Source of the DNA: Pectobacterium actinidiae
GTDB taxonomy: Bacteria > Pseudomonadota > Gammaproteobacteria > Enterobacterales > Enterobacteriaceae
NCBI RefSeq assembly: GCF_000803315.1
Contig: NZ_JRMH01000001.1
Span: 248,001-312,000, forward strand
Reading direction: 5' to 3'
Length of the DNA: 64,000 bases
The notes under the pieces were generated by a model. It had not been told where the DNA came from. It saw nothing but the letters and a program-made list of their open reading frames with translations, and searched no databases. Below are positions 45,191 through 64,000 of this stretch, piece by piece. Each line of letters starts with the position of its first letter. The first letter of the stretch is position 1. Position numbers and translations under genes: made by a program.

Positions 45191-45276
45191 AAATCCCTAT
45201 ATTGTTCAGGGTTTAAGCGTGGCTTGCGCAGCGTTTACTGAATGCGGGTGCGATATGCTTGCCTGAGTGGAGCGAC

Positions 45277-45993
45277 ATGCTTTCTGCTTTTATTGATGAT
45301 GTTGAATGGATTACTTTTCCACGGGCAACGGACGGCGCCGCCTACCCAGGTATTACTGCACGATGCCATTTCCATTTGTCTGCCTACGACGACTCGCTTT
45401 TTGCCGAGGCGAACATTCCTTTTTCCGACGCGCTAGAGCGCGCCGTACCGAAACGACGTGCCGAGTTTTTGGCTGGTCGCTGTGTTGCCAAACAAGTGTT
45501 GAACAAACTGGGTCACCCTGATTTTGTTCTGCATAGCGGAGAAGACCGCTCGCCGCAGTGGCCGGGAAATATTGCGGGTTCGCTCAGTCATAACAAAGAC
45601 AGCGTTCTCTGTGCCGCACATTTGCGTAGCGATGAAGTGTCGTGCGTGGGGGTGGATATTGAGGGATTTATCTCTGACGAGCGAGCGCAGTCGCTGTGGC
45701 CTGGCATTATTGGTGACGAAGAGTTCCAATGGTTTCTGGGACGAGATGAGTCGTTCTGCTGCTTGTTGACGGTAAGCTTTTCAGCGAAAGAGAGCCTGTT
45801 CAAAGCGCTTTATCCACAGGTCAGGCACTACTTTGATTTTCTGGATGCCCGGCTGGTGGCGTTGGATATCACCAAACGTGAGTTCGAGCTGGAGCTGCTG
45901 ACGGATCTCACTCCGACGTTTTACGCGGGGCGTCGTTTTAAAGGCGCGTATCTGCTCAGAGAGTACGACGTCACCACCTTTATCTGCTGCTAA
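45277..45993 (+). CDS. entD: EntD-type 4'-phosphopantetheinyl transferase
   Basis: Transfers the phosphopantetheine arm from CoA to the carrier domains of the siderophore synthetases nearby. The 238-aa protein has the diagnostic CVGVDIEGF and FSAKESLFKALYP motifs with Asp, Glu and Lys for Mg2+ and catalysis, plus KRRAEFLAGRCVAKQVL and GSLSHNKDSV typical of the EntD subgroup. The ATG at 45277 follows GGAG. It is the only plus-strand gene left of the receptor/exporter pair in the siderophore locus. Confidence 0.9.
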   Translation: MLSAFIDDVEWITFPRATDGAAYPGITARCHFHLSAYDDSLFAEANIPFSDALERAVPKRRAEFLAGRCVAKQVLNKLGHPDFVLHSGEDRSPQWPGNIAGSLSHNKDSVLCAAHLRSDEVSCVGVDIEGFISDERAQSLWPGIIGDEEFQWFLGRDESFCCLLTVSFSAKESLFKALYPQVRHYFDFLDARLVALDITKREFELELLTDLTPTFYAGRRFKGAYLLREYDVTTFICC

Positions 45994-46014
45994 AAAAGCC
46001 CGCGTTAGCGGGCT
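45991..46014 (-). terminator. Terminator of the siderophore receptor gene
   Basis: AGCCCGC-GTTA-GCGGGCT (45997-46014). On the minus strand the stem is followed by TTTTTTA, a proper intrinsic terminator for the receptor gene; it overlaps the entD stop region. Confidence 0.85.
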
Positions 46015-46025
46015 AGAGTCATTGA

Positions 46026-47987
46026 TCAGAACTTATAGCTCACGCCGCCGTACACCGTCCGTCCAGATAGGAAGTAGTCGTTGTTGGTAGCGACATAGTC
46101 CCGTTTTTCGTTAGTCAGGTTAGTAAGACCCAGTTTCAGATCCACGTTTTTAACGGGTGTATAGGTCGCACCGATATCCACGGTGTTGAAGCCGCGTGTC
46201 TTACTGACTTCTTTATCAAACAGATACTGGTTACCCGTGTACTGGTAAGAAATATAGGTTGATAAGTTATCCAGCGTCTGCCAGTTCAACTGCGTGTTAA
46301 CCGTATTTTTCGGAGTTTGCTTCAGACGCATTTTGGTGGTGCGGTCTTCGGCATCGACGATGGTCCAGTTGGTCGTCCAGTTCAGGTCATCTGTCAGATC
46401 GACCCAGAACGAGGTTTCAATTCCCTGAATTCGTGCTTTATTCACGTTTTCGTAGGTGAGGCGCGTCGCGACTCTGTCCCAGGTCTGAACCTGAATCATG
46501 TCTTTAATATCGTTATTAAATAGCGTAACGCCCGCGCCGAAGCGTTCGGCCTCATAAGCGGTGCCAATTTCATAGCTGATGGATGTTTCAGGCTTCAAAT
46601 CTGGGTTACCAACGGTTTGGCAACGGCCACGGCAGGCGGCGATGGCATACGATTCAGATGACTGCGCAATAGAAGGGGCTTTAAACGCTTTGCTAACGCC
46701 GCCTTTTACCACCCAGTTGTCGGTGAGGTTATAGGTGGCATAAGCGCGTGGGCTGAATTCCGTTCCGTACGTCTCATGCTTATCGACACGTCCGCCAAAG
46801 GTTAATGCCAGGTCGGCTAGCTTGAATTCATCTTGCAGGAAGAGTGCGCCCTGACTTACGTCAATGGTGCCGTTGGGCAGATTCATACTGTGTTTCAGTG
46901 AAGTTAAGCGGTATTCTCCGCCACCTGTCAGCAAATGGTCGCCCAGATAGCCGGAGACCTGTCCGTCAACGGTATGGTTGTCCTGCGTAATGTCTGCTTT
47001 GCCATTATTGAGTTGGGAATTATCCATCAATTCCACATTCTCATAGAAATAGCGCAGGCGCGTGTCGACGTTATCCCAACTGCCGTTGTGCGTTAATCCC
47101 AGCCCCAGTCGCTCCATTTTTTGAATGTTACGCACTGCCGTGCCGTAGTTATTCCAATGTACGTCACGGTCGTCTTTGGAATAGGTGGCGTCGAAGTCCA
47201 GGCTCTGCTGCGGATCGATTAACCACGTCAGGTTGCTCATCACACTGTAATTATCACGTTTTTCCAGCGCATCGGTATTCTGATTAACGGACTGTTCTGT
47301 TTTCCAGGCGTCACGTTTTCCGCCATCGACTAGGAGGCTCCCCAGTAGCGTGTTTTCTACCAGTGGCCCGCTGATATAGCCATTCAGGCGGTTATGATCG
47401 CCGCCAGAGCCTTCCGTTGGCGCTTCAAAGTTATAGCCAATTTCACCTTTGATTTCGTTAGTTGGTTGGTTCAGGATGACATTAATGACACCGCCCAGTG
47501 CATCGGCACCGTACAGCGAGGACATCGGCCCACGGATCACTTCTACGCGATCGATCGCAGAAACGGGAATCGCACTCAGATCGAAATCATTCCCCATGTT
47601 GCCAGCCAGCGCATCGCGGGAATTGACTCGACGGCCATTGATGAGCAGCAAGGTATAGTCTGCTTTCATGCCACGGATCTTGATTTCGTTACGGCCATAG
47701 CTGGTAGACGGGTTGATATTAATACCCGGTAGCTTTTTCACCGCGTCGGAAACGTTATTCACCGACATCTTTTCCAGTTCAGCATGAGTGATGACAGAGA
47801 CGCTGGCGGGGGCGCTTAGCGTCGTGTGTTTCGTCTGTGTTGCTGTCACGACGATTTTTTCATCTGCCGCGTTTTCTGCCTGTGCGAACGCAGGCAGTGC
47901 GAGTAACCCGGTCATCAGCAGGGCGCGATACACCTTGCTGTGTGGGAAAGGATGATGTGAAAAACGGTTTTCCGATTTTAGCTGCAT
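46026..47987 (-). CDS. TonB-dependent catecholate siderophore receptor
   Basis: 653-aa outer-membrane receptor of the FepA/CirA kind. A long signal peptide ends after AQA (residue 37). The TonB box follows as EKIVVTA, then the plug domain (NEIKIRGMKADYTLLLINGRRV, VEVIRGPMSSLYGADALGGVINVI) and a beta-barrel ending in the aromatic GGVSYKF, typical of outer-membrane proteins. A Cys pair in AACRGRCQ lies in a predicted extracellular loop, as in catecholate receptors. Second gene after the MFS exporter; it presumably imports the ferric form of the siderophore made by the divergent operon. Confidence 0.92.
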   Translation of the reverse strand: MQLKSENRFSHHPFPHSKVYRALLMTGLLALPAFAQAENAADEKIVVTATQTKHTTLSAPASVSVITHAELEKMSVNNVSDAVKKLPGININPSTSYGRNEIKIRGMKADYTLLLINGRRVNSRDALAGNMGNDFDLSAIPVSAIDRVEVIRGPMSSLYGADALGGVINVILNQPTNEIKGEIGYNFEAPTEGSGGDHNRLNGYISGPLVENTLLGSLLVDGGKRDAWKTEQSVNQNTDALEKRDNYSVMSNLTWLIDPQQSLDFDATYSKDDRDVHWNNYGTAVRNIQKMERLGLGLTHNGSWDNVDTRLRYFYENVELMDNSQLNNGKADITQDNHTVDGQVSGYLGDHLLTGGGEYRLTSLKHSMNLPNGTIDVSQGALFLQDEFKLADLALTFGGRVDKHETYGTEFSPRAYATYNLTDNWVVKGGVSKAFKAPSIAQSSESYAIAACRGRCQTVGNPDLKPETSISYEIGTAYEAERFGAGVTLFNNDIKDMIQVQTWDRVATRLTYENVNKARIQGIETSFWVDLTDDLNWTTNWTIVDAEDRTTKMRLKQTPKNTVNTQLNWQTLDNLSTYISYQYTGNQYLFDKEVSKTRGFNTVDIGATYTPVKNVDLKLGLTNLTNEKRDYVATNNDYFLSGRTVYGGVSYKF

Positions 47988-48062
47988 GTCAAAGACCCCA
48001 TCAAATGTAGAAAAATATCCCCGTAAACGTGCTGTGTTACGTGTATTGCTGACCCACTCGGT

Positions 48063-49349
48063 TTATTGCTGTGTAGCCTGTACCGTTTGGCGTGCGGCCA
48101 TCTTTCGGCTGCGTTCAGCCAATTGCGGAATTAAGCGCATTGTCAGCAGCATGGCGGCTAGCGCAAATACGGTGCTGGCGATGGCGAGCTGCGAGAATCC
48201 GTTAATTTTTCCCTCAACGGAGGTGCTTAGATAAGCGGCAGAAGCAACGCTGGCAAGCCCTGATGCCACGTTGGCTGCGGTTCCCTGATAGGACATGAAC
48301 GCGGCGCGCTGATGCGGCAGCGGAATACCTGCGGTAATTGCCAGCGTGCTGCTGGAGCGGGCTGCACTGAGCGCCATGAACAGGGTGAACACCAGATACA
48401 GGGAAAGTGAAAAAGGCAAAACGAAACCGCAGAGAATTACAACGGCCAGCAGCAGCGTCGTGACGACAATCGTCCGGCTGGCATATCCTCGATCCAACAG
48501 ATTGCCGCACAGTTGCATGGTCACCATACTTGCCAGCCCACCGCAGAGATAAAGCAGGGAAATATCATCCCGCGGGAAAGCCAGATTGAACTGAAAGTAG
48601 TTGGAAAAATGGGGAATCAGCAGGAAATGCCCGAACATTTGCAGCGAAATGACCGTCAGCCCCAACAGGAAAAGGGGGGATGCTAACAGATCATGTAATA
48701 CAGACGTGGGTGCCGTGGTGGGCGAAACACGACTTTGCTGAACCCGGTGCGTGGGTGGCATGGAAGGAAAGAGGCACAGCACCAACAACACCAGCAACAG
48801 GCCGCCGAGGCCGAAAATATAAAACGGTGCTTGCCAGTTAATACGGTGAGCCAACTCCAGCGACAGTGGCATGATGACGATGGCCGCAAGTGAAAAACTC
48901 ATGCCGACATAGGCCAACTGCTTTCCACGCTCGTTGGCTGGCACAATATCGACCACCGCCGCCATTAAGACCCCGGATGCTGGCCCAGCCACGCAGCCCG
49001 CCAGAATAAACAACACTAAAAGATGGGTTTGGCTGGTGGCAAACATGCAGGCTGCCGTCAGGCCAAAACGCAGCGTTAGCAGCACGATTAGAGCATGTTT
49101 ACGGTTAAATCTGTCCAGATAGGGAGCGGCGAGGAAGCCGACAATGGCGGAGGCAAACGTTGCACCGCCGCTAATGTAGCCGATGTTTTTGGCATCCATA
49201 GACAGTGCGCTGATGAAATCGGGGCCTAGCGGCATCACCATCATCAGGCTACCGAGGGAAAGCATGTTAATGAGCAGCGCCAGATGCACAACGGATCGGG
49301 TGTGCGGGCGGTACATGCTTTCATCCATGACGGGCTCACATTTAGACAT
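48063..49349 (-). CDS. MFS transporter, probable siderophore exporter
   Basis: 428-aa major-facilitator protein with about twelve hydrophobic segments. LDRFNRKHALIVLL is the loop 2-3 motif. It sits 75 bp upstream of the receptor gene and diverges from the biosynthetic operon, with Fur-like boxes between. By this context it should export the catecholate from the cytoplasm, as EntS does for enterobactin, though it is not obviously an EntS orthologue. Confidence 0.82.
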   Translation of the reverse strand: MSKCEPVMDESMYRPHTRSVVHLALLINMLSLGSLMMVMPLGPDFISALSMDAKNIGYISGGATFASAIVGFLAAPYLDRFNRKHALIVLLTLRFGLTAACMFATSQTHLLVLFILAGCVAGPASGVLMAAVVDIVPANERGKQLAYVGMSFSLAAIVIMPLSLELAHRINWQAPFYIFGLGGLLLVLLVLCLFPSMPPTHRVQQSRVSPTTAPTSVLHDLLASPLFLLGLTVISLQMFGHFLLIPHFSNYFQFNLAFPRDDISLLYLCGGLASMVTMQLCGNLLDRGYASRTIVVTTLLLAVVILCGFVLPFSLSLYLVFTLFMALSAARSSSTLAITAGIPLPHQRAAFMSYQGTAANVASGLASVASAAYLSTSVEGKINGFSQLAIASTVFALAAMLLTMRLIPQLAERSRKMAARQTVQATQQ

Positions 49350-49403
49350 GATTAGTAAAATATTTGCGCAGTCTAGCGCAGCTTAATTTTTCTGACAATG
49401 AAT

Positions 49404-49422
49404 GATAAGTATTTTCATTATC
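49404..49422. promoter_or_regulatory. Fur box 1 (exporter-receptor promoter)
   Basis: GATAAGTATTTTCATTATC, 15 of 19 matches to GATAATGATAATCATTATC by my count. It lies 55-73 bp upstream of the MFS start codon, on the exporter side of the divergent region. Confidence 0.7.
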
Positions 49423-49605
49423 ATTTGTGATGTGGGTTTTATAATCAATACATTCTCGTTGCTAACCATTATCCGTTATGAAACATGCACAAAAAAATTG
49501 ATTAACATCAATATAACCCCTAATTAATCGGAGTGAATAACCATTCTGTGGAAGGATTGACCGAACACGTTACTTCAGTGTAATTTAACTGCGCTTAATA
49601 TAAAT

Positions 49606-49624
49606 GATAATGATTTTAATAATC
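49606..49624. promoter_or_regulatory. Fur box 2 (biosynthetic operon promoter)
   Basis: GATAATGATTTTAATAATC, 15 of 19 matches to the Fur consensus by my count, within a wider AATGAT...ATCATT dyad. It lies 36-54 bp before the isochorismate synthase start. The 310-bp divergent region holds no gene. Confidence 0.7.
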
Positions 49625-49659
49625 ATTGGTATTTAATTTGCGAGCGCAGGAGCCGTCTT

Positions 49660-50856
49660 GTGGATACACTGATTACAGAAGCTGAAACATTTAGCGGGCT
49701 AACTTACTCTGAACAGACCGCTTTTTTATATGCATCGGAACACCGTAGCCTGTCTACTTCCGGCTTATTCGAACGTATTTCGTCCCCTGTTTGTGCTCAA
49801 GGCTCTCACGATGACGGGCTTAGTCCTGCAATCGCGCAGGCGTTCCAACGGGCGCGTCAGGCAGGGCAGTCGCTGCCTATTGTGGTGGGGGCCATTCCCT
49901 TTGATACTACGCAACCGTCTTGTCTCTATATCCCTGAAAGTTATACCGTTACGACGAAATCTGAACTTGTCAGCCGTGCCCGTAAGCACACGGCGGCGGG
50001 CCCTACCGCACTAACGTTAAACAGCGTCCCGAACGAATGTCAGTTTAAGTCCATCGTGGCAAAGGCCGTTGAGCGGTTCCGCCATGGTGAACTGAGCAAA
50101 GCGGTGCTGTCACGCATTCTGGACATTGAGCTGACGAGCCCCGTTAAGGCGCAAACGATCCTCAATAACCTGATGGTGCAGAACGCTGGCGGATACCACT
50201 TCTCCCTGCCGCTGCCGGATGGTTCGGTGTTGCTGGGTGCAAGTCCGGAACTGCTAGTGCGCAAGCAGGGGAACGTCATTGTCTCTAATCCGCTGGCGGG
50301 ATCGGCGCGACGGATGAACGATGAGCATCTGGATTACCTGAACAGCCAGCGCCTGCTGAATTCTGGCAAAGACAAGCACGAACATAAGCTGGTAGTGGAT
50401 GACATCCGCCAACGCCTGATGCCGCTGTGTTCGTCATTAACGATTCCATCAGGTCCTTCGTTGATGCACACCGCTTCCATGTGGCATTTGTCTACCGCTA
50501 TCCGCGGTGAACTGGCGAACCCGGAGATGACGGCGCTTCAAATCGCCTGTCAGCTCCATCCTACCCCCGCACTGTGTGGCTTCCCCACGCAGGAAGCGCG
50601 CCAACTGATTGCTGAACTGGAACCGCACGATCGCGGCGTATTCAGCGGCATTGTCGGCTGGTGTGATGCCAACGGCGATGGCGAATGGGCGATAGCCATT
50701 CGCTGCGGCACGATCAAAAACAATAACGTCCGCCTGTTTGCTGGTGCGGGTATTGTTGAGGCGTCAGTCCCCGAGGATGAATGGGCTGAAACCGCCGCCA
50801 AATTAAACACGATGTTGAATGCGTTTGGGCTTAACTCAGGTGTGGATGGACTATGA
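49660..50856 (+). CDS. entC: Isochorismate synthase (EntC/AmoC type)
   Basis: Converts chorismate to isochorismate, the first committed step to 2,3-dihydroxybenzoate. The 398-aa protein has the chorismate-enzyme core: [72 protein letters not shown] and [20 protein letters not shown]. The start is GTG at 49660 with AGGAG 7 nt upstream. The stop overlaps the next ATG by 4 bp (ATGA), beginning a compact operon. Confidence 0.94.
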
Positions 50857-52478
50857 GCATTGAATTTACGCCCTGGCCGGAGGAACTGGCACAGCGTTAT
50901 CGCGACAAGGGGTACTGGGTTGGCCTGCCGCTCACGGATGCCTGGGAACGTCACCTGTCGACGCAACCTGACGCCGTTGCGGTCGTGTGTGGCGAGCGTC
51001 AGTGGAGCTATCGGGAGCTGGATCGACAGTCCTCCGCGCTGGCATCGCGCCTGACGGAAAGCGGCCTGCGCTGCGGCGACACGGCGCTGGTGCAGTTACC
51101 GAACGTGGCAGAGTTCTATCTGACCTTTTTTGCCTTGCTAAAAATGGGCGTCGCACCGGTAAACGCCTTGTTCAGCCATAACAAGCTGGAGCTGCTGTCG
51201 TATGCTACGCAGATCGAACCGCGTTTGCTGATCGCCTCGGCTGAACACCCGCTGTTTGGCAACGGTGAGTTTCTGGATCGGCTACAAACGCAGGTTCCTC
51301 GTCTGCAAACGGTGGTGATGCTCGGCGACAGTTCGCTGGGGCACAGTCTGACAGACTGGCTACAACCGCACACGTCAACCCGCCAGTATCAGCCTTCCGC
51401 GTCAGGGCAGGTTGCCTTCTTCCAGCTTTCTGGCGGCAGTACCGGTACGCCGAAGCTGATTCCCCGCACTCATGATGATTATTACTACAGCGTACGCCGC
51501 AGCGTGGAAATTTGTGAGCTGACGCCACACACCCGCTATCTATGCGCGTTGCCTGCTCCACATAACTTCCCGTTAAGCTCGCCTGGTTCGCTTGGCGTGT
51601 TCTACGCCGGCGGACGTGTTGTGCTGGCACCGGATCCGGGGGCGATGACCTGTTTCCCGCTGATCGAACGCCATCAGATCGATATTACCTCGCTGGTGCC
51701 GCCCGCTGCCGCGCTGTGGATTCAGGCCGCCGAACAGTTTGGTGGCGCGCTGCGTAGCCTGAAGATCTTGCAGGTGGGCGGCGCGAAGCTGAGTGAAACG
51801 GTTGCTCGTCGTATTCCGGCGGTGCTGGGCTGTCAGCTACAGCAGGTGCTTGGGATGGCGGAAGGGTTGGTGAACTACACCCGACTGGACGACAGCGATG
51901 AGCACACTTTCACCACGCAGGGCTATCCGATGAGCCCAGACGATGAAGTGAAGGTGTTGGACATCGACGGCAATCCGGTGCCGCGAGGCGAAGCGGGTCT
52001 GTTGGCGACACGCGGCCCGTATACCTTCCGTGGCTATTACCGCAGCCCGGAGCACAACGCGCGCGCTTTCGATAGCGAAGGTTTTTACCATTCTGGCGAT
52101 GTGGTGCAGATGACCGAGGATGGCTATTTGCGCGTGGTCGGGCGGGAAAAAGATCAGATTAACCGCGGCGGTGAAAAGATTGCCGCCGAGGAGATCGAAA
52201 ACCTGCTGCTCAAGCATGACGGCATTCTCCATGCCGCGCTGGTGTCCATGCCCGATCCCATTATGGGCGAAAAGAGCTGTGCTTTTCTGGTGGTCAGCGA
52301 TCCCTCGCTGAAAGCCATTACGTTAAGAAAATATCTCCGTAATCAGGGTATTGCTGAATTCAAACTGCCGGATCGTTTCGAAATGATCGACACCTTGCCC
52401 GTCACACCGGTCGGCAAGATTGATAAGAAATCACTCCGTCAGCGCATCCAGACCCAACTTAGCACTCAAAATAAATAA
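50853..52478 (+). CDS. entE: 2,3-dihydroxybenzoate-AMP ligase (EntE/AmoE type)
   Basis: Stand-alone adenylation enzyme that activates DHB and loads it on the aryl-carrier domain of the EntB homologue. The 541-aa protein has A3 [20 protein letters not shown], the aryl-acid subfamily A4 region [29 protein letters not shown] (A5), YHSGDVVQM (A7), [17 protein letters not shown] (A8) and the A10 Lys in VGKIDKKSL. It overlaps entC by 4 bp and ends 10 bp before the entB start. Confidence 0.95.
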
Positions 52479-52488
52479 GGATTTTGTG

Positions 52489-53364
52489 ATGGCAATCCCT
52501 TCTATTGCTTCTTATCCCCTGCCGCGCGCACAGGATTTCCCAGAAAACAAAGTTTCCTGGGCGTTTGAACCTGAACGCGCGGTGCTGCTGATTCACGACA
52601 TGCAGGACTATTTCGTGAATTTCTATGGCGCGGACAGCCCGCTGGCGCAGCAGCTGATTGAGAACATTGTGGCATTGCGAACCTACTGCAAAGCTCAGGG
52701 GATTCCGGTGGTGTATACCGCGCAGCCGAATGCACAAAGCGCGGCCGACCGGGCGCTGCTGAACGACATGTGGGGCGCAGGGCTGAATAATCATCCTGAA
52801 AAACAGCGTGTTGTCAGCGCGCTGGCACCGGATGAGCACGACACGGTGCTGGTGAAGTGGCGCTACAGCGCATTCCACCGTTCGCCGCTGGAACCGATGA
52901 TGAAGGAAATGGGTAAAGATCAGCTGATTATCTGCGGTGTTTACGGGCATATCGGCTGCATGATTACCGCAACGGATGCCTTCATGCGTGACATCAAGCC
53001 GTTCATGGTCGGCGATGCGGTGGCGGATTTCTCACTTCAGGAACACCAGATGGCGCTGAAATATGTGGCGACGCGCGCTGGACGGGTGGTTAGCACGGCA
53101 GAACTCACAGGAGCAAAAATGGCACAGGCACTGACGAAACAAGGATTGAGAGCGCACCTGCTGACCTTGATCGACGAAGACGAAGATCAGTTCGATGAAG
53201 ATGAAAACCTGATCGACTATGGTTTGGATTCGGTGCGCATGATGGCGCTGCTGACCGAATGGCGCAATCAGGGTGTAACGCTGAGCTTTGTCGATCTGGC
53301 TCGTAACCCCAGTCTGAATGCCTGGTGGGCGTTGATCGAAAAGCAGCAGGGAGCCGCATTATGA
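52489..53364 (+). CDS. entB: Isochorismatase / aryl carrier protein (EntB/AmoB type)
   Basis: Bifunctional 291-aa protein. Residues about 1-210 are the isochorismatase (LLIHDMQDYFVNFY with catalytic Asp, VLVKWRYSAFHRSPL, ICGVYGHIGCMITA). The last 80 residues are an aryl carrier domain with the phosphopantetheine Ser in LIDYGLDSVRMM. It makes 2,3-dihydro-DHB and later presents DHB to the NRPS. The ATG at 52489 has AAGG upstream. The stop overlaps the NRPS start by 4 bp. Confidence 0.95.
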   Translation: MAIPSIASYPLPRAQDFPENKVSWAFEPERAVLLIHDMQDYFVNFYGADSPLAQQLIENIVALRTYCKAQGIPVVYTAQPNAQSAADRALLNDMWGAGLNNHPEKQRVVSALAPDEHDTVLVKWRYSAFHRSPLEPMMKEMGKDQLIICGVYGHIGCMITATDAFMRDIKPFMVGDAVADFSLQEHQMALKYVATRAGRVVSTAELTGAKMAQALTKQGLRAHLLTLIDEDEDQFDEDENLIDYGLDSVRMMALLTEWRNQGVTLSFVDLARNPSLNAWWALIEKQQGAAL

Positions 53365-56300: not shown

Positions 56301-56504
56301 TCGGGGATCCAATCGCGGGATAATTTCTTCGAACTGGGCGGGCAGTCATTGCAGACCATCCAGATCGTCAATCGCCTGGCCGCAGAATTTTCCGTCAGCA
56401 TCAAAGTATCTGATGTGTTCGATCATCCCCAGCTCAGCGACTTCTGCCGCTATCTGGACGACAGGCTGTCACAGGATGAGAACAGCGTGGAAATGGTGTG
56501 GTAG
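53361..56504 (+). CDS. NRPS module C-A-PCP, predicted basic amino acid (AmoF type)
   Basis: 1047-aa single-module synthetase. The condensation domain (residues about 1-430) has HHIALDG at 141-147. The adenylation domain (about 450-940) has A3 FTSGSTGLPKG near 605, A4 FNFDASIEEIF near 650, A5 NTYGPTETT, A7 YRTGDR and A8 EFKISGYRIQPGEVE. The carrier domain has Ser in LGGQSLQT near 993. Hand alignment to PheA gives pocket D-A-E-D-I-G-T-V-V-K; acidic positions 239 and 278 indicate Lys, Orn or Arg. The C domain would join DHB from EntB to this residue. No termination domain. Start overlaps entB by 4 bp. Confidence 0.92.
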   Translation: MKPLSVAQRGLWLGHALNDDKATFNTAECIAFDGKVDVEAMLSAIRQAVMECECLYCQFVEVEGKEVDQPEVGFVASPLPAPVGVLSIAELLPAPMTDEEQTIRQWAREEIAQPLDLLNGLPCRFALLCGEKRDFLYSCVHHIALDGFGTTMLFQRIAQIYTALTAGQPVAVAEFGPFSAVLEEEQQRDASGQTAQARDFWLETLNTMPEPASFSEKKAPIAARFLRQSSVLPADIWQPLTALCEGNKISWPDLFLAMLATHLKLVSGSDRLTFGMMVMNRIGSASLTVPSMQMNIVPLCIQVDEQADFVTLAQQVARTKRTLRRHQHYRYEHLRRDLNRVGGEQRLFGPLINIMPFDHPLNYGSLSSSTLNLSAGPVEDLTIEIHFKPDGTPVLDFDANPACYSAEALASLQETLFTLLQRWLAQPQQTSGELLGRWLREERELALITSREPEPFVEPVLTAIAKQARKNPNHLALTQRDRQYSYQQLLDLSGQAAAALHERGIQPGERIGIMLNRSPETIICLLAVMQCGAVYVPLDPEQPRERQQHIIQIADLHTIVTQADYQHRLASVFSGEIVLAGHLLSSNAQAALLPPVEARDGQIAYVMFTSGSTGLPKGVEIGASALDHFTAAARQRYGLRAADRVLQFAPFNFDASIEEIFATLTSGATLVLRTDEMLESIPTFVEQVEEQAITLLDLPTAFWNEWVVGLKTGTLAMPSALRAIIIGGEAVYPEQLAQWQRHAPDTLRLINTYGPTETTVVATSCDLQTQSADVAQLPIGLPLAGVNALILAAGDRPTAEGELVLLGPTLAAGYIGTEHAAFTHIAVGDQDLPAYRTGDRVRREKGQLLYLGRMDNEFKISGYRIQPGEVEAHLLAQPDVDEACVQGIVYPNGVRRLVAFVATKAGEIDARALKQRLSSVLPPAMIPTDYRAFRQLPKTGSNKVDRKRLLAEYRDEAPAQALASETENRVSAIWQQILGVSGIQSRDNFFELGGQSLQTIQIVNRLAAEFSVSIKVSDVFDHPQLSDFCRYLDDRLSQDENSVEMVW

Positions 56505-56512
56505 GGAAAATG

Positions 56513-57280
56513 ATGAACAAGGCACAACCTCTTCAGTTTGATTTCAGCGGCAAGACTGTCTGGGTCACCGGTGCAGCGAGCGGTATTGGCGAAAGCATTG
56601 CCTGCCAGTTTGTCGCGCTGGGCGCGAACGTGATCGGCTTTGATCGCGCATTCCGACATAACGATTATCCGTTCCGCGGCGTGACGCTGGATATCAGCGA
56701 GCCGGACAGCGTGGCGGCGGTGTGTCGCCAGCAGTTGGCGGAAACCGGGCTTGACGTTCTGGTCAATGCCGCCGGGATTCTGCGCCTGGGTGACATCGAT
56801 GCGCTGAGCGTGGACGACTGGCACCAGTGCATCAACGTCAATGCCTCTGGCGCGTTTTATCTGCTGAACGCGCTGGTGCCGCATTTTAAACAGCAGCGCC
56901 GTGGCGCGATTGTCTGCGTCGGCTCCAATGCTGCACACGTGCCCCGCCTGCAAATGGCGGCGTACTGCGCGTCGAAAGCGGCGCTCGCCAGCCTGTCTCA
57001 CTGTGCCGGTCTGGAGCTGGCACCTTACGGCGTGCGTTGCAATCTGGTGTCGCCGGGCTCGACGGACACGCCGATGCAGCGCGGCATGTGGCACAGCGCC
57101 GGTGCCGAGCAGCGCACTATCGCGGGCTTTCCTGACCAGTACAAACTGGGGATTCCGCTGGGCAAGATCGCTCAGCCGGAAGAGATTGCCAATACCGTGG
57201 TTTTTCTGGCTTCCGATCTGGCCAGCCACATCACCATGCAGGACGTGGTGGTGGATGGCGGGGCAACGCTGACGGCCTGA
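56513..57280 (+). CDS. entA: 2,3-dihydro-2,3-dihydroxybenzoate dehydrogenase (EntA/AmoA type)
   Basis: Short-chain dehydrogenase giving 2,3-DHB with NAD+. The 255-aa protein has VTGAASGIGESIA (NAD binding), VNAAGILRLG, catalytic Ser in VCVGSNAA, YCASKAAL (Tyr-x-x-x-Lys) and NLVSPGSTDTPMQ. Two adjacent ATGs (56510, 56513) follow AGGG; the second has the better spacing. Placed between two NRPS genes rather than next to entB, which is the order of the amonabactin operon and not of enterobactin. Confidence 0.94.
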   Translation: MNKAQPLQFDFSGKTVWVTGAASGIGESIACQFVALGANVIGFDRAFRHNDYPFRGVTLDISEPDSVAAVCRQQLAETGLDVLVNAAGILRLGDIDALSVDDWHQCINVNASGAFYLLNALVPHFKQQRRGAIVCVGSNAAHVPRLQMAAYCASKAALASLSHCAGLELAPYGVRCNLVSPGSTDTPMQRGMWHSAGAEQRTIAGFPDQYKLGIPLGKIAQPEEIANTVVFLASDLASHITMQDVVVDGGATLTA

Positions 57281-57302
57281 TTTGCTGAGAGAGTGACAAG
57301 TC

Positions 57303-60300
57303 ATGAAAGATATCGTAACGCTGTTAAAGCAGTTGGAACGGCAGGGTGTGCGTCTGGCGTTGAATGCACAGGGGCAACTGATTTCGCAGTCCAATAAAGA
57401 CGCGATCACGGCAGAGATTGGACGCACGATTAAGGAAAACAAAGACGCCATCGTGCGCTGCCTGACGGCGCAGCAGGCATTTGAGCATCCCATCACGCCG
57501 CAGAATGCCACGTCTGGCCCGCTGTCGTCATCGCAAAGCGGGCTGTGGTTTATCGAGCAGTACGAAGAGCAATCACACCTCTATAATATGCCGGTCTATT
57601 TTCGCCTGACCGGCCCGTTGGATGTGGCCGCGCTGGAATTTGCTTTCGACGCGTTGGCGCAGCGCCATGCCAGCCTGCGCACCCGTTTTGTGGTCAATGA
57701 ACAAGGCAAGGGCGAACAGCGTATCGATGCGTATCAACCGTTTGTGATACAGCATGATGACTTCTCGCCGTTGCCGGAAGCCGAACGGGAAGGGCGCTTA
57801 CAGCAGCAGGTGAAAGCAGAAATCAGCCGTCCGTTCGATCTCACGGCGGGCGATCTCACCCGCGTGCGGCTGGTGAAGATGAGTGAACGGGTGCACGTTC
57901 TGATGATCACCCAGCACCATATTATTTCCGACGGCTGGTCGGTGAAGAATATGTTCTCGGACTTCAAACCGGCTTTTCTGGCTTGCCAAAATCGCCAGCC
58001 TTATCCCGTCGAGCCGACCCAGCTTAACTATATCGATTACGCCCACTGGTTTAATTCCGCCTCGTTTCTGGATTACCACAACGAATTCAAACCGTTCTGG
58101 GTTGAGCGGCTGACGGGGATCCCCGAAGTGCACAGCCTGCCGCTGGATAAACCACGTCCGGCGCATCAGAACAGCGGTGGTGAGGTGATCTTCTCCGCGA
58201 TCAACAACGATCTGTGGGATAAATTCAAACGCCTGTGCCAGCGCTATAACACGTCTAATTTCATTGGCCTGCATGCGGTATTCTCCCTGATGCTGGCGCG
58301 TATCAGCGGTGAGAAAGATATCGTGATTGGCTCGCCGCTGGCCTATCGCGAGCGGCCGGATATCGAAGATGTTGTTGGATTTTTCGTTAACACCATCGTG
58401 TTGCGCACCCAGTTGCAGGACAGCCAGAGCTTCGTGGATTACCTGCAATATTGCCGTGAACAGGATCTGTCAGCTTTCGATCATCAGCTCTATCGTTTTG
58501 AGGCGTTGAGTGAGGCGATCGGCTCCGATCGCACCACCGCGATCAACCCGATCTTCCAGGTGATGCTGGTGTATCAGGCCAAGGTAGATTTCAACGATCT
58601 GATCCCCGGTTGTGATGCGGCGGAAGAAACCTCGCCCGTGCTGCCTGCCAAGACCGATATTTCGGTCAAGGTGACGGAGCTGATGGGCGAGGTGCGGCTG
58701 GACTGGCTGTTTGCCACCGCGCTGTTTGAGCGCCAGACGATCCAGTATTACGCCGACCGCTTTATCCGGCTGATTGAGGCCGTGGTTGAGGCACCGGAAA
58801 CCGATGTCTGGCACCTGCCGCTGATGGAAGCGGAGCGGTTTGCTGCCGTGCTGGCGGAAAGTCAGCAACTGCCGCGTAGCTATCCGCAGCCACAGCTGAC
58901 CGTAACTGACGTGATTGAAGCGATGGCGCTGCGCGATCCCCAGAAACTGGCGATTGCTTTTGATGGTGAACAGCGCACGGATACATTGACGTATGCCGAA
59001 TTGAACAGGCAGGCGAATCAGCTGGCGCACTGGCTGCACCGTCAGGGGCTGGGCGAACAGTCGCTGGTTGGCGTGCTGGCGAAACGCGATCGCTATTTTG
59101 TCGTTGCGCTGCTGGCCGTCTGGAAAGCGGGGGCTGCCTATGTGCCGCTGGATCCTGACTATCCGCCGGAGCGGCTGCGCCACATCATTACGGATGCGAA
59201 TCTTTCCGTCATTCTCGGCGGCGATGGGCAGCAGCTGGCGCAGTGGTCAGCCGAACAGTGCATCGATCTGACCGATCCTACGGTTGTCGCGCAGTGGCAC
59301 GATCTGCCGGGTGATGAAGCGCCAGCCATTCCGCGCCATGCACAGCAACTGGCACAGGTGATCTACACCTCGGGATCGACTGGTTTGCCGAAGGGCGTCA
59401 TGATCGAACACGGTTCGCTGATCAATCTGCTGGACGATCATCGCGATCGCATCGCGTTCACGCCGCAAAGCACGATGTTCAACTGCATGTCGCTCTCGTT
59501 TGACGCCGGTAACATGACGACGCTGCTGCCGCTGAGCAGCGGCGGCACGCTGGCGTTTGGCGAACCCAACGATCGGGCGATTGTGCAGGCCGAACAGGCG
59601 GGCGCGACGCATCTGATCCTGCCGACGGCGCTGATGTCGATTCTCGATCCACAGCAGGTTAATGGTATTCAGGCGATTGGCATGGGCGGTGAAGCCTGCC
59701 CGAATGCCGTAGTGGAAAACTGGGCCGATAAGGTGGCGCTGTACAACATGTACGGGCCGACGGAGTGTACCGTCACCGCGTTGAGTACCCGGCTGCGCAA
59801 AGGCCAGCCTGTCACTATCGGTAAACCGCTTACTCATATTCAGGCTCTGATTCTGGATGCGGCCGGGCAACTGTGTCCAGCGGGCGTACCGGGTGAACTG
59901 TGTCTTGCGGGACTTGGGCTGGCGCGTGGCTACCTCAACCAGCCACAAATGACGGCCAGCCGCTTTGAACACATCACGCTGAATGACGTGAATAATGTCG
60001 AACACGGCACGGCGACGCTGCGCATTTATCGCACAGGTGATAAAGCCAGACTGCTGAATAACGGTGACTATGAATACTGTGGCCGTATTGATGAGCAGAT
60101 CAAGCTGCGTGGCTATCGCATTGAACCGGGTGAAATCGAGGCACAGTTGGCGGCGGTCTGTCCGTCCCTGAAACAGGTTAAAGTCATCGTGGCGCAAGTG
60201 GGGAATCGCCCGGCGCTGGTCGCCTATGGCACGGTGAAAGCAGGTTGCACGACACCTGAGCCTGCCGCTGTGTTGATTGATGTCGCGAAGCACCTGCCGG

Positions 60301-63300
60301 AATACATGGTGCCTTTCCGCTTGATTCTGCTGGAAGATATGCCGCTGACGCCGAACGGTAAGCTCGATGCGAAACAGTTGCCGCCGGTGATAGAAGCCAG
60401 CGAGGGGGACGGCGAAGCTGATAATCCGCTGGAAGCGGACGTGCTGGCGATTTGGCGCAGCGTGCTGAATACGCCGCTGGGCGTTGAAGATGATTTCTTC
60501 CGCTTAGGCGGTGATTCCATTCTCAGTATTCAACTGACCACCCGCCTGCGCAGCGCGGGTTATGTCTGCACGGTGAAAGACGTTTTCGAAGCGAAGAGCG
60601 TGCGGCGTTTATGTCGCGTGCTGGCACAGAATAACCGTGACACCGGCATTGTCGCAGAGCAGGGCACGCTGGAAGGTAAATTCGCGCTGCTGCCGATTCA
60701 GTGCTGGTTTATGGAACAACCGCTGGTACGCCCAGAGCACTGGAATCAGGCGGCGATGATCCAACTGCCTGACGTGGATACCGAACGCCTGACCACGATG
60801 TTGCAGGCGTTGATGGCGCAGCATGACGCGCTGCGTCTGGCCTGTGATGCCGATGGGCAACGCTATCTGACGGATGTGCCTTGCCCTGTGGTGTCGACGC
60901 TGGATTATCGCCAGCTTGGTGATGATGGCCTGCAACAGGCGTTTACCGCGTTGCAGAGTGAATTCGATCCCGCGCAGGGAAGAACGATGGGGTGTGCGCT
61001 GGTGCGGCATCATCCGCAGGCGGACACGGCGGTGTTCCTCGCTTTCCACCATTTGGTGATTGATGCCGTGTCCTGGCGCATTCTGGTTGACGATTTGGAG
61101 CGGCTGTACCTCGGTGAAGCGCTGGCGCCGAAAACGTCGAGCTACCGCCAGTGGGGCACGGCGCTGCATCACTACGCCACACAGCATGCGGAACAGTTGG
61201 CGTACTGGCAGACGCAGGAAGACGGCGTGGATCAGACGGCGCTGCTGGCGGCGAAAGATCCGCAAGGCTATGCCAGCGCCGCGATTCTGACGCTGGATGC
61301 GGAAACCACGGGTCAACTGGTGAGTGAGGCCAATCGAGCCTTTAATACCGAAGTGAGCGATTTGCTGCTGGCGGCACTGACCCGCACCTTAAACGATCTC
61401 GGCTGGGGCGACAAAGCACGCATCATGCTGGAAGGGCACGGCCGCGAAGCGATTGATCCGACGCTGGATGTCAGCCGTACGGTGGGGTGGTTTACCAGCA
61501 CCTATCCGGTGTGCCTGCAAGATAAGCCTGACTGGGCTGCCCTGATTAAATCCAGCAAGGAACAGCTGCGTCAGGTGCCGGATAAAGGCGTTGGGTTTAA
61601 CCCGCTGCGCTACCATCATCCGCAGGGCAGTGCGCTCACGCTGTCGCCGATTGTGTTCAACTATCTCGGGCTGTCGGTTCAGGCTGCTGGCACGTGGCGT
61701 CCGGTAGACGTCGCACCGGGCTGCTGCGTCTCGCCGGAGAATAAACCGGCGGAGATTATTAGTCTCCACGGCGGCATTACGGGCGGGCAGTTAACGCTGC
61801 GTCAGGTCGGCTGCCTCAACCAGCGTGACAGTGAACGCCTGATGCTGCGACTGACGGAGAATCTGCGGGCGATGACGGCAGCCTGTCTGGCACAGCTACA
61901 TCAGGGAATGGCCTTTACCCCCAGCGATTTCCCGGCGGTCAATCTGAGCCAGACGCAGCTCGACAGCCTGTCGCAGCGTTATGACATCGACACCTTGTTG
62001 CCGCTGTCATCGCTCCAGCAGTCGATGTTGTATCACCGTCTACGCTGTCCGCAGGATGATGCCTATCATCTGCAAACGCCGATTCGCTATGCGCAGGCGC
62101 TGGATGTGGAAGGCTATCGTCAGGCCTGGCAGCGCCAGATTCAGCGCTTCCCGGCGCTGCGTGCCGCGCTGGAAAGTGAATGTGCCAGCGTACAGGTGCT
62201 TGTGAAGCAGGCAGAACTGCCTTTCTACTATCAGGATGTGGCGCAGGAGGCCGATCCGCATGCGGTCATCGAGCGCTATCGTCAGCAGGATTTACGCACC
62301 GGATTTGATTTATCGCAGCCGCCGCTGTTGCGCATCGCCTGTTTCCGTGTGGACGAGCAGGACTATCGGGTGATCCTGAGCTGTCACCATAGCATCATCG
62401 ATGGCTGGAGTGGGCCACAGCTGCTGGGTGCGGTGCACCGAGATTATCTGCTGCTGATGCGCGGTGAAACACCTGCGATTCAGGTAGATCGTGCCTATGT
62501 GGATCATGCGCTGCACGCCGTGGCGCAGCAGCCTGCCGTCGACGCTTTCTGGCAGCAGCGGCAGCCGCTGCTGGCGCAGACGAACGATGTCGCTATGCTG
62601 TTTGCGGCGGCGGGGAAACGCGCCGATCTCAGTCAGCATTTGACGCAGGTTGAACCGCAGGTCACCGGCGTGAGCCTGAACGAACAGGAGCAGGCGACGT
62701 TAACCGCCTTTGCCCGTGAAGTCGGCGTTACGCACAGTATTATCGCGCAATATGCCTGGCACCGACTGTTGGCGCGCTCGACCGGCGATGTGGTCAGTAT
62801 TGTCGGTAACGTGCTGTCGGGTAGGGAAAGTCCGGTGGAAGACGTGGCGAGCAGCGTGGGTCTGTACATCAACAGTCTGCCGCTGGCGCTGAGCTGGCAG
62901 CAGCCGGTATCGCTGCAACAGCATCTGGTGCAGTTGCAGAATGAACTGATGGCGATGAACCAGCATGCCACGCAGTCGCTGATTGCGCTGACGGCCGGAC
63001 GCTCACGTCTGTTCAACAGCCTGTTTATTTATGAAAACTATCCCGGTGCGAAAGCTGAGCGTGACGAACGCGCTGACGATCCGCATCGGCTCTATCCCGA
63101 GTTTTCAGCCGCCTATGAAAAAGTCGAGATGCCGCTGAACCTGGTGGTGCGTGAGCAGGTGGGCTGCATGCTGCTGCGCTTCGAGTTTGACGCCGATGTG
63201 CTGGACAGCGCGCAGGCGCGGCGGGTGCTAATGCGCTGGCGTGATGAGGTGGTAGCGCTGGTGAATAGTGCGCCGCAGCAGCCAGCAGAGATCGTTGCGC

Positions 63301-63620
63301 ACAACAAGGTGACCGATGCGGCGGTGAAGCAGGCCGTCACGCCGGATAGCCGCACTAACCCGCCTGATACGCCGTTTGCTCAATCGCTGCTGCGCGTGTG
63401 GGCGCAGACGCTGAGACTCAGTGAATCCGGCCTCTGGTCGCAGACGCTGTGTGAAAGTGGCGTCGATTCGCTCCAGCGTATTGCGCTGGCACAGGCATTA
63501 AGTCGTGCGTTAGCGCAGCCGGTGAGTGTGGCGTTATTACAACGCTATCCTTCACCGCAGGCGCTGAGCGGGTATCTGGCACAGTCGAGGGTTACCGCCA
63601 ATGAGGAAACGCTGTCATGA
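57303..63620 (+). CDS. NRPS docking-C-A-PCP-E-C-PCP (AmoG type)
   Basis: 2105-aa synthetase. Residues 1-55 look like a TubC-type docking domain. C1 has HHIISDG near 203. The A domain (about 540-1030) has YTSGSTGLPKG near 686, FDAGNMTTL, MYGPTECT and IKLRGYRIEPGEIE. PCP1 has LGGDSI near 1068, the GGDS form found before epimerases. The epimerisation domain has HHLVIDAVSW near 1247, EGHGRE near 1376 and RTVGWFTSTYPV. C2 has HHSIIDG near 1693. A C-terminal carrier has GVDSLQR near 2052. Pocket residues read D-A-M-I-G-G-M-V-T-K, not a code I know. There is no A domain for the last C-PCP and no thioesterase. The stop overlaps the next ATG. Confidence 0.92.
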   Translation: MKDIVTLLKQLERQGVRLALNAQGQLISQSNKDAITAEIGRTIKENKDAIVRCLTAQQAFEHPITPQNATSGPLSSSQSGLWFIEQYEEQSHLYNMPVYFRLTGPLDVAALEFAFDALAQRHASLRTRFVVNEQGKGEQRIDAYQPFVIQHDDFSPLPEAEREGRLQQQVKAEISRPFDLTAGDLTRVRLVKMSERVHVLMITQHHIISDGWSVKNMFSDFKPAFLACQNRQPYPVEPTQLNYIDYAHWFNSASFLDYHNEFKPFWVERLTGIPEVHSLPLDKPRPAHQNSGGEVIFSAINNDLWDKFKRLCQRYNTSNFIGLHAVFSLMLARISGEKDIVIGSPLAYRERPDIEDVVGFFVNTIVLRTQLQDSQSFVDYLQYCREQDLSAFDHQLYRFEALSEAIGSDRTTAINPIFQVMLVYQAKVDFNDLIPGCDAAEETSPVLPAKTDISVKVTELMGEVRLDWLFATALFERQTIQYYADRFIRLIEAVVEAPETDVWHLPLMEAERFAAVLAESQQLPRSYPQPQLTVTDVIEAMALRDPQKLAIAFDGEQRTDTLTYAELNRQANQLAHWLHRQGLGEQSLVGVLAKRDRYFVVALLAVWKAGAAYVPLDPDYPPERLRHIITDANLSVILGGDGQQLAQWSAEQCIDLTDPTVVAQWHDLPGDEAPAIPRHAQQLAQVIYTSGSTGLPKGVMIEHGSLINLLDDHRDRIAFTPQSTMFNCMSLSFDAGNMTTLLPLSSGGTLAFGEPNDRAIVQAEQAGATHLILPTALMSILDPQQVNGIQAIGMGGEACPNAVVENWADKVALYNMYGPTECTVTALSTRLRKGQPVTIGKPLTHIQALILDAAGQLCPAGVPGELCLAGLGLARGYLNQPQMTASRFEHITLNDVNNVEHGTATLRIYRTGDKARLLNNGDYEYCGRIDEQIKLRGYRIEPGEIEAQLAAVCPSLKQVKVIVAQVGNRPALVAYGTVKAGCTTPEPAAVLIDVAKHLPEYMVPFRLILLEDMPLTPNGKLDAKQLPPVIEASEGDGEADNPLEADVLAIWRSVLNTPLGVEDDFFRLGGDSILSIQLTTRLRSAGYVCTVKDVFEAKSVRRLCRVLAQNNRDTGIVAEQGTLEGKFALLPIQCWFMEQPLVRPEHWNQAAMIQLPDVDTERLTTMLQALMAQHDALRLACDADGQRYLTDVPCPVVSTLDYRQLGDDGLQQAFTALQSEFDPAQGRTMGCALVRHHPQADTAVFLAFHHLVIDAVSWRILVDDLERLYLGEALAPKTSSYRQWGTALHHYATQHAEQLAYWQTQEDGVDQTALLAAKDPQGYASAAILTLDAETTGQLVSEANRAFNTEVSDLLLAALTRTLNDLGWGDKARIMLEGHGREAIDPTLDVSRTVGWFTSTYPVCLQDKPDWAALIKSSKEQLRQVPDKGVGFNPLRYHHPQGSALTLSPIVFNYLGLSVQAAGTWRPVDVAPGCCVSPENKPAEIISLHGGITGGQLTLRQVGCLNQRDSERLMLRLTENLRAMTAACLAQLHQGMAFTPSDFPAVNLSQTQLDSLSQRYDIDTLLPLSSLQQSMLYHRLRCPQDDAYHLQTPIRYAQALDVEGYRQAWQRQIQRFPALRAALESECASVQVLVKQAELPFYYQDVAQEADPHAVIERYRQQDLRTGFDLSQPPLLRIACFRVDEQDYRVILSCHHSIIDGWSGPQLLGAVHRDYLLLMRGETPAIQVDRAYVDHALHAVAQQPAVDAFWQQRQPLLAQTNDVAMLFAAAGKRADLSQHLTQVEPQVTGVSLNEQEQATLTAFAREVGVTHSIIAQYAWHRLLARSTGDVVSIVGNVLSGRESPVEDVASSVGLYINSLPLALSWQQPVSLQQHLVQLQNELMAMNQHATQSLIALTAGRSRLFNSLFIYENYPGAKAERDERADDPHRLYPEFSAAYEKVEMPLNLVVREQVGCMLLRFEFDADVLDSAQARRVLMRWRDEVVALVNSAPQQPAEIVAHNKVTDAAVKQAVTPDSRTNPPDTPFAQSLLRVWAQTLRLSESGLWSQTLCESGVDSLQRIALAQALSRALAQPVSVALLQRYPSPQALSGYLAQSRVTANEETLS

Positions 63621-64000
63621 CAGGGAACGATGAAGCCGTAGGGAAACCGCTGGCGGATATCCAACAGCCCACGGCCTTCGGGCAGCGGGTGGGAGCCGCA
63701 CACGGTGAACAGCGGCACAGCAGTGAGCTAATTAAGCATTATCCCGCGTCGCTGGTGAGCGCAGCGTGGAGCTGGTTACTGTACAAATACAGCGGTGAAG
63801 AGCAAGTGTGTGCGGCGCTCGTCACGGCCGATCTTCCTGACAACGTGAGGCCGTTGATCGCGCATTTTCAACAGCGCGATCGTCTGGTTAGCGAGTGGAT
63901 CGCCGCAGTGGGATCGTCGTGCGATCCGCAGTCTGCGTCAGAGATTCTGACAGCAGACACCCAGCATACGTTGTTTAGCAGCCTGCTGATCGTGGGGGAT
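63617..64000 (+). CDS. Next siderophore-operon gene, N-terminal 128 codons (AmoH-like by position)
   Basis: Starts with ATG overlapping the previous stop (ATGA) and stays open to the window end. The first 30 residues are polar; then LVSAAWSWLLYKYSGEEQVCAAL resembles a piece of a condensation-type domain, followed by LFSSLLIVGD. By operon order it should be AmoH, which could supply the adenylation domain missing for the final C-PCP of the preceding protein. The visible part is too short to prove this. Confidence 0.6.
   Translation, partial: MTGNDEAVGKPLADIQQPTAFGQRVGAAHGEQRHSSELIKHYPASLVSAAWSWLLYKYSGEEQVCAALVTADLPDNVRPLIAHFQQRDRLVSEWIAAVGSSCDPQSASEILTADTQHTLFSSLLIVGD

Follow-up and report, generated by a model that had tools for sequence, protein, structure and literature searches.

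Which siderophore does the catecholate locus at the end of the window specify? The window is a stretch of 64,000 nucleotides of Pectobacterium actinidiae (G000:C1:248001–312000; genome size 4.92 Mb). The locus spans window positions 45277–63620 and a further 1719 bases past the window end. It consists of genes for a phosphopantetheinyl transferase (PPTase), a TonB-dependent receptor and a major facilitator superfamily (MFS) exporter, followed by a seven-gene operon, amoC-E-B-F-A-G-H; the receptor and exporter genes are on the strand opposite to the operon. Very probably this is a complete amonabactin-type locus, whose predicted products are amonabactins and not enterobactin. Amonabactin synthesis is proposed on four concordant lines, namely the order of the genes, the order of the domains, the adenylation codes and the relatives that bear a name; the same four support an earlier sequence-only reading that had called the locus amonabactin-type.

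Gene identities come from Pfam and NCBIfam profile matches to the window proteins. The operon, all on the + strand, opens with amoC, an isochorismate synthase (49660–50856, TIGR00543 over cut-off), amoE, a 2,3-dihydroxybenzoate-AMP ligase (50853–52478, NF008192 and TIGR02275 over cut-off), and amoB, an isochorismatase with an aryl carrier domain (52420–53364, Pfam Isochorismatase and PP-binding). The first nonribosomal peptide synthetase (NRPS) gene, amoF (53361–56504), is followed by amoA, a 2,3-dihydro-2,3-dihydroxybenzoate dehydrogenase (56498–57280, NF006074 and TIGR04316 over cut-off), and by the second NRPS gene, amoG (57303–63620). The last gene, amoH, has the first 128 of its 700 codons in the window (63617–64000) and ends at G000:C1:313719. 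The AmoF open reading frame runs from 53325, but alignments with many relatives begin only at residue 13–16, which makes the ATG at 53361 the likely start. Similarly, AmoB probably starts later than its mechanical open reading frame, as many relatives align only from residues 10–24. With the AmoF start so placed, overlaps of 4 to 7 bases are present at the C-E, B-F, F-A and G-H junctions. The profile matches bear out the order C, E, B, NRPS, A, NRPS, with an entD-like gene, receptor and MFS exporter alongside, that had been read from the sequence, and the unnamed open reading frame that had been placed after the second NRPS is AmoH.

AmoF is a condensation-adenylation-thiolation (C-A-T) protein by Pfam and ends after its carrier domain. 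AmoG (2105 aa) displays a TubC_N docking domain, one A domain, two carriers and three Condensation-family stretches. Of these three stretches, the middle one is assigned as an epimerisation (E) domain because it has the motif HHLVIDA and a preceding LGGDS carrier, which we take to be typical signs of epimerisation; the order is then docking-C-A-T-E-C-T. The two domain orders of the sequence-only reading are thus upheld, with the docking domain in addition. Catalytic motifs are present in AmoF and AmoG. AmoH, 700 aa, has a single A domain and no carrier domain. A Pfam scan finds neither a thioesterase nor a reductase domain in any amo gene.

Substrate codes were read after aligning the A domains from the window and from 53 related loci. 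E. coli EntF was included as a ruler and returned the expected Ser code DVWHFSLVDK. The AmoF code is DAEDIGTVVK in 54/54 rows. This presumably reads Lys, which agrees with the Aeromonas product. The AmoG code (53 rows, the cut contig L056 left out) is DAMIGGMVTK in 45, including all 17 Aeromonas rows having AmoG, and DAMIAGMVTK in 8 (six Photobacterium, Salinivibrio and Motilimonas). For AmoH there are 50 rows, as the AmoH frame was not found in L022, L035, L056 and L057; 36 give DILQLGCVWK and 14 give DILQLGCIWK, the form present in the window. We take DILQLGC[I/V]WK to read Gly, again in agreement with the Aeromonas product. A second alignment reads L at one AmoG code position, the window code being given as DAM(I/L)GGMVTK, and has a gap at one AmoH code position. 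The known amonabactins are P693, P750, T732 and T789. Papers given here by PMC number are cited from extracts; in that of PMC8949500, Aeromonas AmoG takes Phe or Trp, AmoE-AmoF acts twice and Gly is optional.

A contig search yielded 63 loci, of which 53 (L009–L061) are amo loci from Pectobacterium, Samsonia, Photobacterium, Salinivibrio, Motilimonas, Aeromonas, Pseudomonas, Stutzerimonas and one gammaproteobacterial metagenome-assembled genome. The other 10 are 33% identical or less and were set aside (two Bacillus, seven cyanobacteria, one Ignavibacteriales). The order CEBFAGH, with all seven genes on one strand, is found in 48/53 amo loci, Aeromonas included, and chance is therefore not an issue. 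The five exceptions are L050 and L056, cut by contig ends, and L022, L035 and L057, which show no AmoH. In a public-protein comparison of AmoF, among the matches listed (120 of 235), AmoF is 57–59% identical over 99% to Aeromonas proteins named by NCBI "amonabactin biosynthesis non-ribosomal peptide synthetase AmoF". Also among the matches listed, it groups with a 418-member protein cluster, whose P. brasiliense member is 97% identical and named "amino acid adenylation domain-containing protein", and a Brenneria rubrifaciens relative is 77% identical.

The Aeromonas operon amoCEBFAGH is from Esmaeel et al. 2016 (cited via PMC8949500 and PMC11861348) and corresponds to MIBiG BGC0001502 as cited in PMC12704434. 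The sequence-only reading had named this order; it is the order of the Aeromonas loci, and comparison beyond position 64000 shows that AmoH completes it here. The Aeromonas and Pectobacterium systems share gene order, AmoG domain order, the Lys and aromatic codes and a Gly-type AmoH. The A. hydrophila AmoG, with 2089 aa, one A and three Condensation domains (PMC11861348), is alike in make-up to the AmoG here. However, AmoF is about 58% identical, AmoH is about 165–185 residues longer than that of A. salmonicida or A. tecta, and PPTase, receptor and exporter adjoin the operon in Pectobacterium. In this last respect the locus resembles the Photobacterium, Salinivibrio and Motilimonas set (L021–L023, L049, L051, L052, L054, L058, L059), where exporter and receptor are beside the operon in 9/9 and the PPTase as well in 8/9 (L022 ends before any AmoH); a long AmoH N-terminus is also found in L021, L058 and L059. 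Unlike here, the three genes run in the direction of the operon in that set, apart from a reversed Motilimonas exporter, and the AmoG code has A for G at one position in 8/9. An amonabactin gene cluster has been noted in Stutzerimonas (PMC10165715). The Stutzerimonas/Pseudomonas loci share the order CEBFAGH in 13/14, the exception being L035, which lacks AmoH; their AmoF and AmoG codes are those found here, but their AmoG stops after the E domain in 14/14.

The proposed pathway is as follows. AmoC, AmoB and AmoA would make 2,3-dihydroxybenzoate (DHB), and AmoE would load it on the AmoB carrier domain. AmoF would activate Lys, its C domain joining DHB to Lys, and would be used twice. AmoG would activate Phe or Trp, epimerise this residue to the D form and join two DHB-Lys units to it, with an optional Gly activated by AmoH. 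The predicted product is a linear bis-catecholate, which the MFS protein would export and the TonB receptor take back. Genes, domains, codes, gene order, Fur-like sites and conservation are read directly from the sequences. The iterative use of AmoF, the optional Gly and the product itself are carried over from Aeromonas, and export, uptake and iron control are suggested by gene position and family.

Several points weigh against this assignment. The product is a prediction from the genes. Two code positions, 278 in AmoG and 299 in AmoH, vary with the alignment and are soft. The last AmoG carrier is only 31–41% identical to the Aeromonas and Photobacterium carriers. Pectobacterium AmoH has 700 aa, against 536 aa in A. 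salmonicida and 515 aa in A. tecta, the extra length being at the N-terminus. In addition, 16/17 Aeromonas loci have no PPTase, receptor or exporter relative in the flanking stretches (L050, L056 and L057 being cut stretches in this survey), while A. diversa has a PPTase.

The alternative that has been used in print is an enterobactin locus, in which DHB and Ser give a cyclic tri-catecholate through an EntF with thioesterase. PMC8431002 and PMC10991766 use that name for the locus, and the DHB genes are indeed shared with entCEBA of E. coli, with EntE, EntB and EntA 61–63% identical and EntC 48%. However, identity between AmoF and the EntF of E. coli is only 30%, and AmoF has the code DAEDIGTVVK and not DVWHFSLVDK and carries no thioesterase. 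In the one E. coli record compared (L076), entA directly follows entB and entF is several kb off, so that the statement of the sequence-only reading that enterobactin loci do not have entA between two NRPS genes holds there, whereas amoA is so placed here. A thioesterase-ended Ser module just beyond the window would have refuted the sequence-only reading. A thioesterase-ended NRPS module is in fact located 7.4 kb past AmoH (L073:9575–13540), but its code, DVQNIGDVTK, is not that of Ser, and as LysR and polyketide synthase (PKS) genes intervene it was rejected as a part of the pathway. Elsewhere the genome does encode large NRPSs with Ser-like codes, two in number (L005, L006), one of which begins about 16.5 kb past AmoH; no DHB genes were seen near these two, and a genome search for DHB-AMP ligases at E ≤ 1e-100 matches only the amoE of the operon. 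With substrate code, thioesterase and gene order all in disagreement, enterobactin is rejected as highly improbable.

Chrysobactin loci consist of a Lys module and a Ser module. A chrysobactin-like or myxochelin-like DHB-Lys product, formed by AmoF alone, finds some favour in that MxcG is the NCBIfam model nearest to AmoF (986 bits, against a cut-off of 2300) and in that proteins named MxcG, among the matches listed, are 40–42% identical to AmoF. But an MxcG-type reductase domain is absent, there is no Ser module in the operon, and AmoG and AmoH are both present in 23/25 genomes of the genus; such a product is hardly credible. Closer to the amonabactin assignment, and overlapping with it, are amonabactins of a make-up other than the Aeromonas set, with no Gly, with Gly always, or with an extra residue added through the final C-T of AmoG. 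The long AmoH N-terminus of Pectobacterium and Samsonia, not found at that length in Aeromonas, would fit this, as would the intact final C-T motifs in 38/38 long AmoG forms, even though C-T is missing in 15/53. On the other hand the adenylation codes equal those of Aeromonas, apart from an I/V difference at one AmoH position, and a different make-up is unlikely, if far less so than either DHB-Ser or DHB-Lys products.

For the predicted amonabactin pathway, the part played by the final C-T of AmoG needs separate discussion. AmoG stops after the E domain in 15/53 rows, namely 14 of the Pseudomonas/Stutzerimonas type and Aeromonas diversa. Trees of AmoF and of AmoG place A. diversa as the sister lineage of the remaining sampled Aeromonas and away from Pseudomonadaceae, so the simplest reading of these trees is two separate losses of C-T; the AmoG tree is a quick tree in which A. 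diversa is flagged as a long branch. No C-T piece was found elsewhere in three short-form genomes, the best matches being 28–36 bits and each in an open frame of AmoG length. P. stutzeri VS-10 is reported as an amonabactin producer in PMC5345036, citing other work. HHxxxDG in the last C domain and the Ser of the last carrier are retained in 38/38 long forms. Between the window and four Aeromonas/Photobacterium rows, C3 is 49–50% and T2 31–41% identical, as against 68–72% for C1 and 80–85% for T1; this faster divergence weighs against strong constraint on the final C-T. Judged from these sequences, the final C-T seems functional where present, yet dispensable.

A Gly-type AmoH is kept in 14/15 short-AmoG loci, L035 having none, and the final C-T is therefore unlikely to be the only Gly carrier. 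A related observation concerns Stutzerimonas stutzeri TS44 (L035): its fetched stretch contains AmoG without AmoH, which makes the strain a possible natural Gly-less producer. If the final C-T is not the Gly carrier, AmoH would have to charge the AmoF carrier, the first AmoG carrier or the AmoB carrier, or be idle in short forms, since 14/15 synthetases without the final C-T keep it. The catecholamide linkers of the amonabactins are 12 atoms for Lys-Lys and 15 for Lys-Lys-Gly, compared with 5 in enterobactin (PMC5382913). Counted by the same rule, these lengths appear to fit DHB attached to the side chains of both Lys residues, with Gly inserted at one of them between side chain and DHB. They do not appear to fit Gly after the aromatic residue, which is the expectation from a simple reading of a final C-T charged with Gly. 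A further-reaching reading is that the final C-T is not the Gly carrier and that the long forms, including that of Pectobacterium, use it otherwise, e.g. for chain release or an undescribed congener; this reading is tentative and on balance doubtful. The natural loss of C-T in relatives offers a handle on Gly addition and product release.

Approximately 215 residues precede the AmoH A domain in Pectobacterium and Samsonia (63617–64000 plus L073:117–761), and this stretch is 72–89% identical among Pectobacterium and Samsonia. Weakly similar N-terminal stretches are found in Photobacterium indicum, Photobacterium frigidiphilum and Motilimonas. As half of a condensation domain the stretch finds no support from hhalign against four C/E sets, with probabilities of 0.2–0.5% and 1.4% for the A-domain control. 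The P. indicum AmoH gives a weak Condensation match (E = 0.0002, below the curated cut-off), and two other long AmoH proteins give none. In the AlphaFold model of AmoH, the model confidence score pLDDT is <60 in every ten-residue block up to 200.

The genes adjoining the operon start with the entD-like PPTase (45277–45993, + strand; Pfam 4PPT_N and ACPS, with NF007604 EntD below cut-off). Its open reading frame begins at 45259, and the in-frame ATG at 45277 is the start that had been used in the sequence-only reading. The CirA-like TonB-dependent catecholate receptor (46026–47987, − strand) is called by Pfam and NCBIfam. The MFS exporter (48063–49349, − strand) has the myxochelin exporter MxcK as its nearest NCBIfam model, with 188 bits, below the cut-off of 525. 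In two Aeromonas genomes the receptor has a single close relative each, at 57% identity, the next best being at 33%. The clear 57% relative in the A. salmonicida genome is a candidate for FstC, the amonabactin receptor of that species. In a Stutzerimonas genome one protein is 52% identical. Within the Pectobacterium group (rows L009, L020 and L081 left out), receptor identity is 96.6% for P. betavasculorum (L015), 92.5% for Samsonia (L018) and 82.5% for P. carotovorum (L019). By contrast, AmoF identity is 97% for P. carotovorum and 93% for P. betavasculorum. Receptor alleles seem to have been exchanged between species.

The 64 kb window was scanned against a 19-base Fur consensus. Two Fur-box-like sites, both read on the − strand and situated between the exporter gene and amoC, share the top score of 16/19: 49404–49422 and 49606–49624, the latter 35 bases before amoC. 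The next other site, at 29698, matches at 15/19. Judging by these sites, the locus is probably iron-regulated.

An AmoF tree built from the window, EntF and 32 of the 53 loci resolves three distinct clades, each with support of 100/100: Pectobacterium with Samsonia, Aeromonas, and Pseudomonadaceae. The operon has a G+C of 58.3% vs 51.6% for window positions 1–45000, where no stretch of operon length (steps of 500) is above 53.8%. An old transfer of the operon into the Pectobacterium line would fit, but the G+C argument is only suggestive because a high G+C is common in NRPS genes. Plasmids searched with amoC yielded partial matches only, with coverage of at most 29%; two of the plasmid-collection regions (E. 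coli, A. caviae) are without annotation.

The assignment to Pectobacterium made from the sequence is borne out by AmoF, which is 96–97% identical to that of P. brasiliense, P. carotovorum and P. versatile. Of 25 genomes of the genus, 23 have both a full-length AmoG and an AmoH, the latter without its first 20 residues in one genome. The other two genomes, G162 (L082) and G171 (L081), have decayed loci in which amoC, amoE, amoA, PPTase and receptor genes are kept and the exporter gene is broken. No trace of amoB, amoG or amoH was found in either genome, while amoF survives in one of them as its final 19 residues. Both decayed loci are adjoined by a large Ig-repeat protein gene; in G171, where the corresponding frame was scanned, an outer membrane efflux gene is present too. 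From this distribution, 23/25 genomes with AmoG and AmoH and a decayed operon in the other two, the amo locus is a genus-wide trait with secondary loss. Among 149 genomes of the wider family, AmoF is found at E ≤ 1e-200 in two, the window's own and one at 91%. As a separate observation, IucA/IucC-type matches number two in G162, none in G171 and one in the P. actinidiae genome.

The P. actinidiae genome contains other large biosynthetic genes. Some 2 kb beyond AmoH, a LysR gene opens a PKS/NRPS region (L073:4349–20000, L074) that includes a ketosynthase-acyltransferase-carrier PKS, a C-A-T NRPS with thioesterase, a large NRPS, a stand-alone thioesterase, a fatty-acid hydroxylase, a luciferase-like monooxygenase, a phosphoesterase and an MFS protein. 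On the minus strand at G000:C1:1570457–1615577 there are giant NRPS open frames, with lengths of 7054, 8584 and 8818 aa.

In the literature, the extract of a 2012 paper states that there are no data on the siderophore that P. atrosepticum makes with these genes (PMC3349551). The 2021 paper PMC8431002 calls the P. atrosepticum locus enterobactin, reports removal of entA (ECA0481), with the NRPS gene ECA0482 downstream, and says that Pectobacterium siderophores "have not been characterized". The sequence-only reading had named chrysobactin and achromobactin among the siderophores usually discussed for soft-rot bacteria; this does not agree with PMC8431002, whose extract credits Pectobacterium with enterobactin and denies it chrysobactin and achromobactin synthesis. 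PMC10991766, as far as its extract goes, gives an enterobactin cluster entAFBECD with cirA and separately lists "amonabactin P 750" among detected clusters, for P. betavasculorum. The amonabactin locus that had been put forward as a notable addition thus stands as a locus but is less new than thought, the label for the genus being already in print. Extracts of the open-licence literature on Pectobacterium siderophores, amonabactin and antiSMASH gave no chemical report of amonabactin from Pectobacterium.

The amonabactin reading corrects the published name "enterobactin" for the locus. If it is true in P. atrosepticum too, the entA-mutant results, which have been interpreted in terms of enterobactin, would concern a different, tetradentate siderophore. 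As predicted from its genes, a plant soft-rot bacterium carries a complete gene set for an iron-scavenging molecule of the Aeromonas type.

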